A stretch of DNA of 14,464 bases. Source: Pseudomonadota bacterium. GTDB lineage: Bacteria; Pseudomonadota; Alphaproteobacteria; Sphingomonadales; Sphingomonadaceae. The first letter of the stretch is position 1, and each line of letters begins with the position of its first letter. Below the pieces are notes generated by a model that was given only the letters and a program-made list of their open reading frames with translations, was not told the DNA's origin and ran no database searches. The translations under genes and the position numbers were made by a program. Below, piece by piece: positions 5,632 through 13,551 of the stretch. The DNA lies in contig CAUJJQ010000165.1 of the NCBI GenBank assembly GCA_963205285.1, positions 1-14,464 on the forward strand, read 5' to 3'.

Positions 5632-6642
5632 ATGTCCGATTTGCCCAATATTCAGCCCGCCAGCCGCACATCGACCTTGCTCGATGCGCCCGACCGGACG
5701 GTCAGCGTGCGCGAATTGTTCGGCATTGATGTCGATATGGACGTCCCCGCCTTTTCAGAGGCGGATGAACGTGTCCCCGACCTTGACGGCGCCTATGTCT
5801 TTGACCCGGACACGACGCTCGCCATCCTCGCCGGTTTTGCCTTTAACCGTCGCGTGATGGTGCAGGGTTACCATGGCACGGGCAAATCAACGCATATCGA
5901 ACAGGTGGCGGCGCGGCTGAACTGGCCGTGCATCCGCATCAACCTCGACAGCCATGTGTCGCGGATCGACCTGGTCGGGCGCGATGCGATTGTGCTGCGC
6001 GATGGCAAACAGGTGACCGAGTTTAAGGAAGGTTTGCTGCCCTGGGCCTTGCAAACGCCGACCGCTTTGGTGTTCGATGAATATGATGCCGGACGGCCCG
6101 ATGTTATGTTCGTCATCCAGCGCGTGCTGGAAGCCGATGGCAAATTGACCCTGCTCGACCAAAATCGGGTTATCCGCGCAAACCCATGGTTCCGCCTGTT
6201 TTCGACCGCAAATACGGTCGGGCTGGGCGACACCACCGGCCTTTACCACGGCACGCAGCAGATTAATCAGGGACAGATGGACCGCTGGAATCTGGTCGTC
6301 ACGCTCAATTATCTGCCCGCCGCAACCGAAGCGGCCATCGTGCTCGCCAAATCGCCCGACTATGCCGACGAAGCGGGCCGCGCGCTTATCGACAATATGG
6401 TGAAGGTCGCCGAATTGACCCGCGCCGGTTTTATGGGCGGCGATATTTCCACGGTGATGAGCCCGCGCACGGTGATCAGTTGGGCGCAAAATACATCGAT
6501 ATTCAAGGATGTCGGCTTTGCATTCCGCCTGTCCTTCCTCAACAAATGTGATGAGGCGGAACGGATGCTGGTCGCCGAATATTATCAGCGCGTATTCGGC
6601 AAGGATTTGCCTGAATCGATTGTGGGCCGTTCAACGGGTTGA
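5632..6642 (+). CDS. cobS: CobS-like AAA+ ATPase (MoxR-type, cobaltochelatase subunit S family)
   Basis: A 336-residue AAA+ ATPase of the CobS family, homologous to the ATPase subunit of the aerobic CobNST cobaltochelatase, which uses ATP to drive cobalt insertion into hydrogenobyrinate diamide. Visible motifs are Walker [10 protein letters not shown] (79-87, Lys85), Walker [11 protein letters not shown] (Asp149-Glu150), and a sensor-1 LFSTANT with Asn194, followed by the [23 protein letters not shown] insert typical of CobS. The N-terminal [12 protein letters not shown] segment is also characteristic. ATG 5632 starts the recognised N-terminus (MSDLPN); no good Shine-Dalgarno is seen. An in-frame ATG at 5566 would add a Cys/Arg-rich segment and is not favoured. 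A CobT-like partner lies two genes downstream. No CobN or other corrin gene is in the window, so a non-cobalamin role is possible. Confidence 0.92.
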
Positions 6643-6739
6643 GCTGCTCCGCCGTAACGGCATCGCACGCGTGGTTAGCATCTTGTAAAGCATTTTTCGG
6701 CACATGGTCTGTCAACTGCCATGATTGCGGACAGGCTGC

Positions 6740-8170
6740 ATGACGCGATATATTGTTCTGGGTGCCCTTAATAGTTTGATCCTGCTCGCCATTTCGGGGA
6801 GCGCGGGGTTCGACATCGTCCAACGATGCGGGTCACTCACCCCCTGTGCCGGTCCCGGTTGGGGCACATGGCTGATGGCAGGCCTCCCCATATTATTGCT
6901 GTTCGCCGGTGCGGCAATTTTTGCGCCGCGCGCTATCCGCAGCCTCACCAGCCGTCGCGCCGACGTCAAGGCAGTGGCAATTGCAGCCGCCCAAAGCGAT
7001 GCCGCAGCGGTTGATGCCGATGATATCGGTCTGTCGCGGCTGGCACGGTTGCGCGCTGCCCCGATTGCCGACGTTGATATGGATGCGCACGTCGCCGATG
7101 AGGTGGTGGACGATATGGATGCCGACTTTGACGCTGGCCTTGATTCTGGCACCGAAACATGGCCGGTCGCCGATGTTGACGAATGGGAAGCGGAAGAGGA
7201 ATTGACTGAGGTGAAGGCCGACGCCGACGAGCCGGCGCCGCTCGATATGCCAGTCGCGGTCGACTGGGCAGCGGATGGTGACAGCGTGGATAGTGCCGAC
7301 ATGGTGCCCGACGCTGCGGAAATTGCCCCCGGCTTTGCCGCGCTGGGTGACTGGGAGGTCGAAGCGGTCAGCGATGATCTGCCCGCCGAAAAATGGGCCT
7401 ATCCCGGCGATGATGCTGTGGCCGATCAGGCTGATGACGCGCCCAATGCGACGGTGCGCACTGACCCCTTTGCCGTCGGACGCGACCGTATCGTCTGGGC
7501 GATAGAAGATGATGTGGCGGCGGATGTGTCGGTGGAGCCTGTTGCGGATAATGCGCACGACAGTGTAGAAGATTGTGGCGAACCGGACGCAATCGACTGC
7601 GCGGCTGGTGACGATTGGTCGATGCCGCCTGCCATCAGCGATGATGGCGACGATGATAACGCTTTTGACGGTGCCGATTGCCCGCCGATCACTGCCTTTG
7701 CAGCGGCAGATGCATGGTCAGCGCCGACAATGGGCGCGCCTGCAACCAACCGCAGCCCGCTGCAACAGGCGGCATGGCTGATTGCGCCGGGGCCGTTGCC
7801 GCGCCTGCGTGCGCATGGCGAAACAGGCTTTCCATGGGCCGCCGCGACGATCAGCGCGGTTGCTGATTCGATGCTCGACCTTGCCAGCCCGCCCAGCCTT
7901 GGTGAATTTGCTGCCGAAGTTTCGGCATGGAGACAAGTGGTTGCCGAATTACCCGCCGCAACGCCGATTGCGGGGGATGATGCGGCTGCCTTTAACGCAT
8001 GGCTCGAAAGTCTGGCGCAACATCTGTTTCTGTTCGGCACGTCGCCCGACCTTGAAACCTTGCTGGTTGATGCCCTGTCGCGCCTGACACTGGCGGCAGA
8101 GGGGGACGCGACACTCGCCGCCATGCTGCCCGCAGAGCTTTTCCCGACGGATGCACGCAACGTCGCGTGA
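6740..8170 (+). CDS. Unrecognised two-TM membrane protein with long acidic Trp-containing cytoplasmic region
   Basis: A 476-residue protein of no family I recognise. Residues 4-20 and about 45-63 are hydrophobic helices joined by a short loop with Cys30 and Cys36. The following RAIRSLTSRR is basic, so the positive-inside rule puts the loop in the periplasm and the rest in the cytoplasm. Residues about 90-330 are very rich in Asp, Glu and Ala and look disordered, with single tryptophans at 141, 149, 176, 205, 219, 253, 293 and 326, mostly in acidic surroundings. Residues about 335-476 are less acidic and look like a small helical domain. The ATG at 6740 is preceded by GGACAGG. It lies between the CobS-like and CobT-like genes, 97 bp after one and 65 bp before the other on the same strand, so a shared function is inferred from position only. 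Confidence 0.8.
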   Translation: MTRYIVLGALNSLILLAISGSAGFDIVQRCGSLTPCAGPGWGTWLMAGLPILLLFAGAAIFAPRAIRSLTSRRADVKAVAIAAAQSDAAAVDADDIGLSRLARLRAAPIADVDMDAHVADEVVDDMDADFDAGLDSGTETWPVADVDEWEAEEELTEVKADADEPAPLDMPVAVDWAADGDSVDSADMVPDAAEIAPGFAALGDWEVEAVSDDLPAEKWAYPGDDAVADQADDAPNATVRTDPFAVGRDRIVWAIEDDVAADVSVEPVADNAHDSVEDCGEPDAIDCAAGDDWSMPPAISDDGDDDNAFDGADCPPITAFAAADAWSAPTMGAPATNRSPLQQAAWLIAPGPLPRLRAHGETGFPWAAATISAVADSMLDLASPPSLGEFAAEVSAWRQVVAELPAATPIAGDDAAAFNAWLESLAQHLFLFGTSPDLETLLVDALSRLTLAAEGDATLAAMLPAELFPTDARNVA

Positions 8171-8235
8171 TGGCGCGCAACCACCCTTCAATTTAACGCT
8201 TCACCTTACTGCCCGCGCCGCATAAGGCGGGGGGC

Positions 8236-10062
8236 ATGAGCCAGCGGCAGCCCATCGACGATCTGAAATCGGTCTTGACCGGCGCTGCACGTGCGCTGTC
8301 GGGTGAGCCGGAGGTGGAGGTTGCCTATACCAGTGATGCGCCGCACGCGGTTGGCAAGGGGGTAAAGGTCAACGCCCCTTCGCGCACACTGCCGCGCGGC
8401 GATGTGGCGATTGCGCGCGGACAGGCGGATGCACTGGCGCTGCGCCTCAAACACCATGAAGCCGCCATCCACAACCGCCTGCGTCCCAGCGAACCGCTGG
8501 CAGGGGCCGCCTTTGACCGGATGGAGGATGCGCGGGTCGCCGCGCTGGGCGCGCGGGCGATGCAGGGGTTGCGCGACAATCTGGTGGCGGAAACCGCACA
8601 GCGTTTCGCCTGCGACCCCATTTCGCGCGCCACATCGGCGGGCGAAGTGCCGGTCAGCAGCGCGCTCGAACTATTGTTGCGCGCGCATCTCGCCGACTTG
8701 CCGGTGCCCGATTGTGCGGCCGATGGTCTGGCACTGGTGCAGGCGGAATTGCAGGCGCGCGGCGGCGGTGACTTTGACCTGCTGTCAATGCTGATCGACG
8801 ATCAGGCGGCCTATGGCCAACAGATGATGCGCTTGTTGCAACACCTCGACATGGTGCAGGCGGACTTGCCCTTTGACACCGGCGATGCGGATGAGGACGC
8901 CGAAAATCAACAGGATAACTCCGACGAGAATGAGGATGGGGAGGAGGATCAGCAGGGCGCAGCGGCTGAGATGGAGGCACGCGTCCAGAGCGGTGAGGGC
9001 GAAACGGGGGAGGCGGAGGAAAGCGACGTCGATATCGACGGCATGGACAATGGCGAAGAGGATGCGATGGGCGACATGGGCGATGAAGCGCCGATGCCGG
9101 TGCGCCCCAACCGTCCGCACATTGACATTCCCGATTTCAACTACCGCGTTTTCACCAGCGCGCATGACGAAGTGGTCGGCGCGCTTGACTTGTGTGATGC
9201 GGAGGAATTGGCGCGGTTGCGCGGTTTCCTCGACCAGCAATTGGTGCCGTTGCAATCGGCGGTAACCCGGCTCGCCAACCGGTTGCAGCGCCGGTTGATG
9301 GCGCAGCAAAACCGCGCATGGGATTTTGACCAGGACGAAGGGACGCTGGACGCTGCCCGGCTGGCGCGGGTCATCGCCAACCCTATGCTGTCGCTGTCAT
9401 ACAAGGTCGAACGCGACACGGATTTTAAGGATACGATCGTCACCCTCCTCATCGACAATAGCGGGTCGATGCGCGGGCGGCCGATTTCGATTGCCGCCAT
9501 TTGCGCCGATATTTTGGCGCGGACATTGGAACGTGTCGGGGTGAAGGTCGAAATATTGGGCTTTACCACCCGCACGTGGAAGGGTGGGCAATCGCGGGAG
9601 GATTGGCTGGCCGCCGGACGTCCGGTGCAACCCGGTCGCCTCAACGATGTGCGCCACATCCTCTATAAACCGGCGGATGAGCCATATCGCCGCGCGCGCA
9701 ACAGCCTGGGGCTGATGATGCGCGAAGGGTTGCTCAAGGAAAATATCGACGGCGAAGCGCTCAAATGGGCGCATGCGCGCATCGCCCACCGCAGCGAAGA
9801 CCGCAAGATTTTGATGGTCATTTCGGACGGTTCGCCGGTCGATGATTCAACGCTCAGTGTGAACAGCAGCGGCTACCTCGACCAACATTTGCGCCAAGTC
9901 ATTGGCTGGATTGAAAATAAATCGCCCGTCGAACTCATCGCCATCGGCATCGGCCATGATGTGACGCGCTGGTATAGCCGTGCGGTGACGATCATGGACG
10001 CCGAACAATTGGGCGGCGCGATGGTCGACCAACTGGCCGATTTGTTCGATATTGATAGCTGA
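8236..10062 (+). CDS. cobT: CobT-like VWA-domain protein (cobaltochelatase subunit T family)
   Basis: A 608-residue CobT-family protein. The N-terminal region (about 1-210) is helical. A strongly acidic, low-complexity linker spans about 216-286, as in known CobT proteins. The C-terminal VWA domain (about 400-608) carries the MIDAS motif DNSGSM starting at Asp407, then FTTRTWKGG and the late [10 protein letters not shown] and [10 protein letters not shown] blocks seen in CobT. CobT forms a complex with the CobS AAA+ ring and couples ATP hydrolysis to CobN in cobalamin-making bacteria. The ATG at 8236 is supported by AAGGCGGGGGG just upstream. The separation from cobS by an acidic membrane protein, and the lack of cobN nearby, are notable. 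The CobT family assignment is secure; the physiological role is not. Confidence 0.92.
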
Positions 10063-10176: not shown

Positions 10177-10332
10177 TGAAATAGACACAAAGGGGTGACT
10201 CTCGCCCCTGAAAAGCTTAGGCAGGGGCAAAGCGGGCAAGGTGGCCGGGAGCGCCACCAACCGCATTCGGGATCGCAAAACCAAATAGTGCGCGGGCGCT
10301 GTGACGCGCGCGCTGGGGGGAGGGAGCGACCA
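10177..10332 (+). promoter_or_regulatory. Leader region upstream of the AlsS-like gene with two small stem-loops
   Basis: This stretch holds no convincing gene. Two short inverted repeats are visible: GCCCCTG (10204-10210) with CAGGGGC (10222-10228), and GGTGGC (10240-10245) with GCCACC (10253-10258). Just before the start, GGAGGGAGCG gives a good ribosome binding site for the ATG at 10333. The frame stays open further upstream, but nothing there resembles the enzyme family. I could not place a promoter confidently. Confidence 0.35.
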
Positions 10333-12003
10333 ATGGCCAATGAGCCCAAGCATGCAGGCAAAAAAGCGTCCGATCTGTTCATCGACTGTCTGGAGCAGGA
10401 GGGGGTCGAATATATTTTCGGCGTGCCGGGGGAGGAGAATCTCGATTTTCTCGACTCGCTCTCGCGCTCCAAGCAGATAAAGCTCATCCTCACCCGCCAT
10501 GAACAGGGCGCGGGGTTTATGGCCGCGACCTATGGTCGCCACACGGGCAAGACCGGGGTTTGCATCGCCACCTTGGGGCCGGGCGCGACCAATTTTGTGA
10601 CCGCTGCGGCCTATGCGACGCTGGGCGGCATGCCGATATTGATGATTACCGGCCAGAAACCGATCAAAAAATCAAAACAGGGGCGGTTCCAGATTCTCGA
10701 CGTTGTCTCGATGATGCAGCCGATCACTAAATATACCCACCAGATGCAATCATCGGACAATATTCCCAGCCGCGTGCGCGAAGCATTCCGATTGGCGGAG
10801 GAGGAAAAACCGGGCGCTGTCCATATTGAATTGCCAGAGGATATTGCCGACGAACATACCGAATCTGTCCCCATCAAGCGGTCGATTGCGCGCCGCCCAT
10901 CCGCCGATCCAAAGGCGGTGCGCGCGGCGGTAACCGCGCTCGAAAATGCCAAATCGCCGCTGCTGGTAATCGGCGCGGGGGCCAATCGGACGATGACCGG
11001 GCGCATGCTCCTCCAATTTGTGGAAAAGACCGGCATCCCCTTTCTCACCACCCAATTGGGCAAGGGCGTGATTGACGAACGCCACCCGAAATTTTTGGGC
11101 TGCGCGGCCTTGTCAGCGGGAGATTTTGTCCACCGCGCGGTGGAGGATGCCGACTGCATCGTCAACATCGGCCATGATGTAATTGAAAAACCGCCGTTTT
11201 TTATGCGCAGCGGCGGGCCGACGGTCATCCATATTTCGACCAAATCGGCAGAGGTTGACCCGGTTTATTTCCCATCGGTTGAGGTGATTGGCGATATCGC
11301 CAACGCCATCTGGCAGATGAAGGAAGATATTGTCCCACAGGGCAGTTGGTCGTTTGACCATATGCTTGCCTATCGCGCGGCAGAGGTGGCACACACTGCC
11401 AGCCTGTCGGGTGATGCACGTTTCCCGATTTTTCCGCCGCATCTGGTGACCCAAGTGCGTGCGGCAATGCCCGATGACGGGATCATCTGCCTCGACAATG
11501 GCGTATATAAAATCTGGTTTGCGCGCGGATACACCGCCTATCGCCCCAATACGGTGCTGCTCGACAATGCGCTCGCCACTATGGGTGCGGGGCTGCCCAG
11601 CGCGATGATGTCGGCGATGGTCTATCCCGACCGCAAAGTGATGGCGATCTGCGGCGATGGCGGTTTCATGATGAACAGTCAGGAGATGGAGACGGCGGTT
11701 CGCCTGAAACTCAACATCACCATTTTGATCCTGCGCGACGATGCTTATGGCATGATCCGCTGGAAACAGGCGAATATGGGCTTTGTCGATTTCGGCCTGA
11801 CCTATGGCAACCCCGATTTCGTCAAATATGCCGAGAGTTATGGCGCGCATGGCCACCGGGTCGAAAGCGCCGCGCATCTGGCCGAACTGCTTGCCCATTG
11901 CCGCGATACGCCCGGCGTCCATCTGATTGATTGTCCGGTCGATTACACGGAAAATGACCAGATTTTGAACAAAGATATCAAGGATTTGAGCAAGGCTTTG
12001 TGA
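10333..12003 (+). CDS. ThDP-dependent acetolactate synthase (catabolic AlsS-like)
   Basis: A 556-residue ThDP enzyme whose sequence follows catabolic AlsS closely. The N-terminal PYR domain has FGVPGEEN and the ThDP-activating glutamate in RHEQGAGF (Glu57). The segment QPITKYTHQMQSSDNIP and the central domain ADCIVNIGHDVIEKPPFF parallel AlsS. The C-terminal PP domain has GDGGF (441-445) followed after 25 residues by RDDAYGM, where the metal-binding position usually Asn is Asp469-Asp470; the end VKYAESYGAHGHRVES is also AlsS-like. AlsS condenses two pyruvates to 2-acetolactate plus CO2. No regulatory IlvN subunit and no acetolactate decarboxylase gene is adjacent; an aldehyde dehydrogenase follows instead, so another 2-oxoacid reaction is possible. 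ATG 10333 follows a strong GGAGGGAG. Confidence 0.85.
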   Translation: MANEPKHAGKKASDLFIDCLEQEGVEYIFGVPGEENLDFLDSLSRSKQIKLILTRHEQGAGFMAATYGRHTGKTGVCIATLGPGATNFVTAAAYATLGGMPILMITGQKPIKKSKQGRFQILDVVSMMQPITKYTHQMQSSDNIPSRVREAFRLAEEEKPGAVHIELPEDIADEHTESVPIKRSIARRPSADPKAVRAAVTALENAKSPLLVIGAGANRTMTGRMLLQFVEKTGIPFLTTQLGKGVIDERHPKFLGCAALSAGDFVHRAVEDADCIVNIGHDVIEKPPFFMRSGGPTVIHISTKSAEVDPVYFPSVEVIGDIANAIWQMKEDIVPQGSWSFDHMLAYRAAEVAHTASLSGDARFPIFPPHLVTQVRAAMPDDGIICLDNGVYKIWFARGYTAYRPNTVLLDNALATMGAGLPSAMMSAMVYPDRKVMAICGDGGFMMNSQEMETAVRLKLNITILILRDDAYGMIRWKQANMGFVDFGLTYGNPDFVKYAESYGAHGHRVESAAHLAELLAHCRDTPGVHLIDCPVDYTENDQILNKDIKDLSKAL

Positions 12004-12009
12004 CGTGTC

Positions 12010-12112
12010 CCCCTCCCGCTTGCGGGAGGGGCCAGGGGTGGGCGTGCCTGACGGGCACTGCACTATCCGGACCGACCCACCCCCGAGCCCTCCCGCAAGC
12101 GGGAGGGGGGAG
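12010..12112. repeat. Nested palindromic intergenic repeat between the ThDP enzyme and aldehyde dehydrogenase genes
   Basis: Two hairpins with the same stem, CCCTCCCGC/GCGGGAGGG, lie at 12010-12031 (loop TT) and 12088-12107 (loop AA). They are reverse complements of each other and are joined by a further pairing of GGGGTGGG (12035-12042) with CCCACCCC (12076-12083). A small GTGCC/GGCAC hairpin (12044-12057) sits in the middle, so a single strand could fold into a branched, cloverleaf-like structure. The design matches multicopy intergenic palindromes I recall from sphingomonad and other alphaproteobacterial genomes. It fills almost the whole gap. Confidence 0.85.
12101..12112 (+). promoter_or_regulatory. 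Ribosome binding site of the aldehyde dehydrogenase lying in the repeat arm
   Basis: GGGAGGGGGGAG at 12101-12112 ends 8 nt before the ATG at 12121. The G-rich purine run belongs to the right arm of the palindromic repeat and its flank, so the repeat appears to provide the Shine-Dalgarno. If the hairpin forms in the mRNA, it could partly mask this site. Confidence 0.55.
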
Positions 12113-12120
12113 TATCGAGA

Positions 12121-13551
12121 ATGAAACTCAACGACACCTACCCGCTATATCTCAATAACCGGGCGGCACAGCCCAATGCCGATTTGGTGGTGCGCGACAA
12201 ATATACCGGCGAAGTGGCGTTCCGCACCGCGCTCGCCACCCCGGACATCATCGATGAAGCCATAGCAGGGGCGGTACGCGCCGCCGAACCCATGGCCGAA
12301 ATGGCGAGTTACGAACGTCAGGCCGTGCTCGACCATTGTGTCGCGCGGTTCCGCGAACGCTTTGACGAGCTGGCCTATGCTTTGTGTGTGGAGGCGGGCA
12401 AGCCCATTGCCGATGCGGAGGGGGAGGTGAGCCGCCTTATCGATACCTTCCGCATCGCGGCGGAGGAGGCGACGCGCAATTATGGGGAGGTGCAGCCGCT
12501 CGACATTTCGCCGCGCGCCAAGGGCTATATCGGCATGTGGCGGCGTGTCCCCATCGGCCCGTGCAGTTTTATTTCGCCGTTCAATTTTCCGCTCAATCTG
12601 GCGGCGCACAAGGTCGCACCGGCGATTGCCATTGGCTGCCCCTTTGTCATGAAACCGGCATCGCTGACCCCGTTGGGCGCGATCATCATGGGCGAAGTGC
12701 TTGCCGAATGTGACCTGCCAGAGGGGGCGTTTTCGGTGCTGCCCGCCGCGCGCGACGGGGCGGATTTATTCACCACTGACGAACGGTTGAAATTGCTGTC
12801 CTTCACCGGATCCCCCGGCGTTGGTTGGGATTTAAAGGCGCGGGCCGGCAAGAAAAAGGTCGTGCTCGAACTCGGCGGCAATGCAGCGGTGGTGGTGGAC
12901 AAGGATGCCGACCTGTCCCACGCGCTCGAACGGATAGTTTTCGGCGGCTATTACCAATCGGGGCAAAGCTGCATCCATGTGCAGCGCGTCATCATCCACG
13001 CCGATATTTACGACCAATTGCGCGATATGCTGGTCGCGCGGGTCAAAACTTTGGTCGCGGGCGACCCAAAGGACAGGCGCACCTTCATCGGCCCGATGAT
13101 CAGCGAAAAGGAGGCACAGCGCCTCAAAAACTGGATCGGCGCAGCGGTCGCGGGCGGTGCAACGCTGCTCGCCGGCGGGGATTGCACGGGCAATATGCTG
13201 GGAGCCAGCCTGCTCGAAAATGTATCGACGACGAGCGAGCTTTACCGCGAAGAAGCCTTTGGCCCGGTGGTGATTTTATCCAAATTCACCGATTGGGAAG
13301 CCGCGTTGGATGAAGTGAATGACAGCAAATATGGGCTACAGGCGGGGCTGTTCACCGATAATATTCAGCAAATTATGCGTGCGTGGGACCGGCTCGACGT
13401 CGGGGGGATTTGCGTCAATGATGTGTCGTCGTTCCGCGTTGATAATATGCCCTATGGCGGGGTGAAGGATTCAGGGCTCGGCCGCGAAGGGGTGCGCTTT
13501 GCGATGGAGGATATGAGCGAGATAAGGAACCTGCTGATCCGGCGGCGTTAA
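12121..13551 (+). CDS. NAD(P)-dependent aldehyde dehydrogenase
   Basis: A 476-residue member of the aldehyde dehydrogenase superfamily, which oxidises aldehydes to acids with NAD(P)+. Catalytic elements are in place: Asn155 in SPFNFPLNL, Glu250 in LELGGNAA, and the nucleophile Cys284 in SGQSCIHVQR. The Rossmann-type cofactor region is marked by KPASLTPLG and by SFTGSPGVG, and the conserved EEAFGPVV and PYGGVKDSGLGREG blocks are near the C-terminus. Length is normal. The substrate is not evident; IHVQR after the Cys resembles lactaldehyde, phosphonoacetaldehyde or glyceraldehyde-3-phosphate (non-phosphorylating) types, but this is only suggestive. It lies 117 bp after the AlsS-like gene, so it may oxidise an aldehyde linked to that enzyme. 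Its stop overlaps the convergent cNMP-domain gene by 4 bp. Confidence 0.92.
   Translation: MKLNDTYPLYLNNRAAQPNADLVVRDKYTGEVAFRTALATPDIIDEAIAGAVRAAEPMAEMASYERQAVLDHCVARFRERFDELAYALCVEAGKPIADAEGEVSRLIDTFRIAAEEATRNYGEVQPLDISPRAKGYIGMWRRVPIGPCSFISPFNFPLNLAAHKVAPAIAIGCPFVMKPASLTPLGAIIMGEVLAECDLPEGAFSVLPAARDGADLFTTDERLKLLSFTGSPGVGWDLKARAGKKKVVLELGGNAAVVVDKDADLSHALERIVFGGYYQSGQSCIHVQRVIIHADIYDQLRDMLVARVKTLVAGDPKDRRTFIGPMISEKEAQRLKNWIGAAVAGGATLLAGGDCTGNMLGASLLENVSTTSELYREEAFGPVVILSKFTDWEAALDEVNDSKYGLQAGLFTDNIQQIMRAWDRLDVGGICVNDVSSFRVDNMPYGGVKDSGLGREGVRFAMEDMSEIRNLLIRRR

Follow-up and report, generated by a model that had tools for sequence, protein, structure and literature searches.

The window analysed here, a stretch of 14,464 nt on the forward strand of contig CAUJJQ010000165.1 from a member of the Sphingomonadaceae, encodes the AAA+ ATPase CobS and the von Willebrand factor A (VWA) protein CobT, the two motor subunits of a cobaltochelatase, separated by a gene for a predicted membrane protein (hereafter the middle gene). 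It contains no gene for CobN, the remaining member of the CobNST set. CobN is genuinely missing rather than lost to an incomplete assembly, and its absence reaches far beyond the window: CobT without CobN is the rule in the genus. The low ratio of nonsynonymous to synonymous substitution rates (dN/dS) of cobS, 0.014, together with the wide distribution of CobT, makes it very probable that CobST has a function independent of CobN.

The original prediction, which was made from the sequence alone, had noted that neither CobN nor another corrin gene is present in the window, and a Pfam scan of ten window proteins indeed detected no corrin gene besides CobS and CobT. It had also proposed a search for cobN and a full cobalamin pathway elsewhere in the genome. 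In the corresponding assembly, a 1.9-Mb draft that is 76% complete, no match was obtained to the CobN family (PF02514) or to CobH/CbiC, the only other corrin pathway enzyme searched for. Since drafts can miss genes, the near relative SJ829 (G220), which is 99% complete and shows the same gene order as the window, was examined for CobN as well, and it contains no CobN-family match either.

The same pattern was observed in samples of the genus (60 genomes, and 20 more making 80), the family (149 genomes), and the class (192 genomes). All 60 genus genomes contain a CobT_C match (PF11775), but only four contain a CobN-family protein and two (G159 and G183) contain CobH/CbiC. By NCBIfam, the four CobN-family matches are one magnesium chelatase BchH (G162) and three CobN proteins (G159, G183, and G192); in G159 and G183, CobN lies next to CobH, and each of these genomes has one CobT_C match. 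The 20 further genomes yielded five CobN-family matches, which were not subtyped, bringing the genus total to 9 of 80. At the family level, CobT_C and the CobN family were found in 144 and 47 of the 149 genomes, respectively; the corresponding numbers in the class were 154 and 80 of 192, with 75 genomes carrying CobT_C and no CobN-family match and a single genome showing the reverse. PF02514 also catches BchH, and the CobN-family counts therefore overstate CobN. CobS and CobT are routinely used as markers of B12 synthesis. Most of the Sphingomonadaceae sampled (98/149) have CobT without a CobN-family match, and the marker is therefore misleading.

Two further observations were made in these genomes. 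The CobN of G192 (G192:C2:580597-583899, locus L092) is full length (TIGR02257, 1537 bits), yet no CobH/CbiC match was found in this genome. This gene, in a genome lacking corrin-ring synthesis, perhaps belongs to a salvage locus like that of Sphingomonas haloaromaticamans, for which a riboswitch-linked btuB-hoxN-cobW-cobN-cobO-btuF locus is reported (PMC6970198). Six other genus genomes (G152, G157, G173, G191, G199, and G203) contain an additional CobT_C-like match of lower score, located in open frames of ~260–330 aa, which are probably other VWA proteins.

The genes of the pair and the middle gene are located on the same strand, with gaps of 97 bp (cobS to middle gene) and 65 bp (middle gene to cobT), and the following features were annotated:

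5632..6642, + strand: cobS, AAA+ ATPase subunit of cobaltochelatase type, 336 aa (TIGR01650, PF12556, and PF07728); dN/dS 0.014 relative to SJ829
5866..5892, + strand: Walker A of CobS, residues 79–87, from the motif position
6740..8170, + strand: middle gene, 476 aa, product with two transmembrane (TM) segments, an acidic linker, and a helical C-terminal domain; no named family; dN/dS 0.32
6752..6937, + strand: predicted N-terminal TM hairpin of the middle protein, approximately residues 5–66, from Kyte-Doolittle peaks
6965..7744, + strand: acidic linker of the middle protein, residues 76–335, modelled with low confidence and probably disordered, from composition, predicted local distance difference test (pLDDT) values, and indels
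7745..8167, + strand: C-terminal helical domain of the middle protein, residues 336–476, from dN/dS (0.12) and pLDDT
8236..10062, + strand: cobT, VWA subunit of cobaltochelatase type, 608 aa (PF06213 and PF11775)
8851..9135, + strand: acidic linker of CobT, residues 206–300, from composition
9400..10047, + strand: VWA domain of CobT (PF11775), from the Pfam match, with the metal ion-dependent adhesion site (MIDAS) motif

Both subunits were assigned to the cobaltochelatase families. CobS matched TIGR01650 with 591.7 bits (cut-off, 558.55) as well as the Pfam domains CobS_N and AAA_5. CobT exceeded the cut-offs of the Pfam families CobT (239.7 bits) and CobT_C (327.1 bits) and fell 1.25 bits short of that of NCBIfam TIGR01651 (757.8 vs 759.05 bits). 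The closest solved chains by sequence are those of CobS (E 2.8e-157) and CobT (E 9.6e-190), respectively. Walker A, Walker B, and the sensor Asn of CobS start at residues 79, 146, and 190, and the MIDAS motif of CobT is located at residue 407; Walker A is kept in all 28 loci that cover the motif, and the MIDAS motif D.SGSM is present in 74 of 74 loci. The CobT linker contains 34 D/E and 3 K/R among its 95 residues. In the comparison of the window with SJ829, where both genomes lack a CobN match, dN and dS of cobS are 0.007 and 0.46, and dN/dS of cobT is 0.064; CobS and CobT are 99 and 96% identical to the SJ829 copies, respectively.

The original prediction was borne out in several respects. 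The two chelatase-type subunits are intact, with Walker A and B, the sensor Asn, and MIDAS all located. An open reading frame (ORF) for a two-TM protein with an acidic tail lies between them on the same strand. As in MoxR-like AAA+/VWA pairs, an AAA+ protein with Walker A and B (PF07728) is encoded close to a VWA partner with MIDAS (PF11775); the solved relatives that rank after CobS itself are midasin, CbbQ (E 1.3e-07), and NorQ (E 1.4e-05).

CobS and CobT fall into the families of cobaltochelatase CobNST over nearly their whole length, but CobN is absent here, hardly any corrin-ring genes are present in the genus, and an extra membrane gene lies between the two. NorQ/NorD, CbbQ/CbbO, and RavA/ViaA are likewise AAA+ and MIDAS-bearing VWA proteins encoded together. 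Reports on these systems describe protein clients, membrane enzymes among them (PMC13036017, PMC9976466, and PMC9489729), and metal insertion driven by NorQD (PMC13036017). The window CobS is, however, far more similar to CobS than to either of NorQ and CbbQ; no client gene was recognised adjoining the pair, and no candidate client common to all loci emerged.

The question raised by CobST without CobN is already known in kind from ChlI/ChlD, where the motor subunits of a tetrapyrrole chelatase are likewise kept alone, i.e. without the large subunit (ChlH or CobN), and where the authors term the function unexplored (PMC9227772). That case concerns other bacteria and a fused, frameshifting chlD gene, whereas separate cobS and cobT genes of alphaproteobacteria are concerned here. 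Caulobacter vibrioides, which was included in the control set, also has CobT and no CobN match, and we know of no middle gene at its cobT. Insertion mutants of this orphan cobT (CCNA_01367) lose fitness under ethylenediaminetetraacetic acid (EDTA), and the gene had earlier been tied to copper stress, according to one study (PMC12004947). The link to EDTA and copper points to a possible role of CobST in metal homeostasis or metalloprotein maturation, and the chelator phenotype makes the question directly testable.

Overall, the best reading, which we favour by a modest degree of belief, is that CobS and CobT constitute an AAA+/VWA remodelling or metal-insertion machine of alphaproteobacteria. 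In this reading, CobS would be the AAA+ motor and CobT its VWA partner, with no need for CobN. As for NorQ/NorD, CbbQ/CbbO, and RavA/ViaA, the VWA protein would hold a client while the ATPase ring acts on it by pulling or twisting, and this movement would let metal in or remodel the client. A J-domain protein, encoded upstream in most relatives, may feed clients to CobST. In the clade of the window, the middle protein, with its two TM helices, cytosolic acidic arm, and small helical domain, would anchor either the motor or the client at the inner membrane. The parts of this model differ in strength: independence from CobN is its firmest element, remodelling or metal insertion is a somewhat probable description of what CobST does, and a contribution of the middle protein, as the membrane tether of the motor, is proposed tentatively.

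Of the 23 loci that extend 980 bp or further beyond cobS on its upstream side, 21 carry the J-domain gene (PF00226) there in the same orientation, no more than 3.5 kb from cobS, and an opposite-strand bolA gene lies beyond it in 18 loci. A J-domain co-chaperone as neighbour fits protein remodelling better than it fits a tetrapyrrole enzyme; proximity is no proof, and bolA is divergent.

The middle protein matched no Pfam or NCBIfam family. The ORF list gives TTG 6725 as the start, but ATG 6740 is the most plausible one, as related proteins share their first residues with a protein starting there. Five relatives with 60–78% identity, retrieved by a search among billions of proteins, align with it over the full length, and this together with the dN/dS of 0.32 relative to the SJ829 copy indicates that the gene is real and not a chance frame. 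Two hydrophobic N-terminal segments begin at residues 5 and 44, a pattern identical in all eight aligned sequences (Kyte-Doolittle), and the low-confidence structure model places helices at residues 2–28 and from residue 41. Residues 76–335 contain 70 D/E and 9 K/R among 260; pLDDT is <50 over residues 80–335, and relatives differ by indels in this linker. The C-terminal part is predicted to be helical, with pLDDT mostly 60–81, and a fold search gave no convincing match. Relative to SJ829, dN/dS is 0.41 in the linker and 0.12 in the C-terminal 141 residues, which are the best-kept part of the protein. Basic residues follow the second hydrophobic segment. Under the positive-inside rule, a basic flank of a TM segment marks the cytosolic side, and the acidic arm is therefore predicted to be cytosolic, on the same side as CobS and CobT. 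In composition, this arm resembles the acidic linker of CobT, a likeness that is suggestive only. Two cysteines in the inter-TM loop are kept in the window copy, the five close relatives, and L065 (8507-10216), but not in L066 (9088-10392).

A profile search identified the middle gene in 4 of the 80 genus genomes (the window genome, G220, G164, and G162), and a single-sequence search identified it in 1 of the 149 family genomes. The G164 and G162 proteins are distant (~30% identical to the window copy), and an acetyltransferase-like gene follows the middle gene in both, with a weak GNAT match in the G162 copy only. In a CobT tree of 35 rows, the four genomes group together in a single, fully supported clade, whose sister comprises 22 rows from the rest of the genus. 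The slot between cobS and cobT is occupied differently elsewhere: all 21 other genus loci showing both genes have a DUF900 hydrolase there, accompanied in 18 by an opposite-strand gene of the major facilitator superfamily (MFS). Outside the genus, cobS and cobT lie within ~260 bp of each other in 12 loci, 2.2 kb of other genes separate them in locus L047, and in 13 family loci the 6 kb upstream of cobT contain no cobS. The contents of the slot are thus variable, and the trio is a clade trait. The suggestion of the original prediction that the trio may be a machine accordingly finds no support outside a single clade. Of the two outcomes named there as refuting it, cobN with a complete pathway elsewhere was not found, and a lack of conservation of the middle gene holds outside this clade, within which its position between cobS and cobT is kept. 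Of the machine repurposed from cobaltochelatase, the MoxR-like pair without CobN stands, and the conserved trio does not. The middle protein is at most a clade-specific accessory.

These data bear on the principal alternative, in which the middle gene is a bystander, i.e. a variable cobS–cobT slot took in unrelated genes and only CobS and CobT belong together. We give this explanation a nearly even chance. It accounts for the DUF900 and MFS genes in the same slot and for the loci in which cobS and cobT are close together or cobS is not nearby, and it agrees with the middle protein changing far faster (70% identity to the SJ829 copy) than CobS and CobT. What it explains less well is that the middle gene lies in the slot, on the same strand and with short gaps, in all four genomes that have it, even at ~30% identity, and that both ends of the protein are well kept.

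A second alternative is that CobST still serves a CobN-type chelatase, which was missed in the draft or is met by gene exchange, as in the cobN-carrying members of the genus. The 9 of 80 genus genomes with a CobN-family protein, and in particular G159 and G183 with CobN beside CobH and a single CobT_C match each, are in its favour, but no CobN-family match was found in the nearly complete SJ829 genome or in 56 of the 60 CobT-bearing genus genomes, and the dN/dS of cobS between two CobN-less genomes is not expected from idle waiting; we therefore consider this explanation improbable. A third alternative, that CobST is left over from lost B12 synthesis and is disappearing, would agree with the lack of CobN and CobH matches in most of the genus, but is already disfavoured by the presence of CobT_C throughout the genus sample and in nearly all of the family, the intact motifs, and the strong purifying selection, and is highly improbable.

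Several points weigh against CobST as a CobN-independent remodelling or metal-insertion machine. The window lacks the J-domain gene, its contig ending 5.6 kb ahead of cobS, and in SJ829 this gene is 5.9 kb away on the upstream side of cobS. Of the 80 genus genomes, 76 do not have the middle gene. PF11775 also matches in Bacillus subtilis, included in the control set, so that a lone CobT_C match is no proof of CobT. CobS was surveyed at the level of loci and detected in 38 of 74; many of the remaining loci do not extend far enough to show it. CobST coexists with CobN in three genus members, and some CobST may thus serve CobN.

A conserved ATPase pair is thus left without an assigned job, and a second job for the cobaltochelatase motor is suggested. 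In a broader and rather speculative version, CobST and the J-domain protein would be a general metalloprotein-maturing machine of alphaproteobacteria, perhaps acting on an inner-membrane enzyme that contains iron or copper, with B12 synthesis as one of two jobs; the membrane-tethered acidic protein of this clade, as a competitor or mimic of the CobT acidic linker, would bring the motor to a membrane client. We regard this version as unlikely.

On the 3' side of cobT, acetolactate-synthase-like and aldehyde dehydrogenase genes are located in the window (10330-13551), and the same genes are found there in the genus loci examined. This neighbourhood is lasting and has no evident link to CobST.

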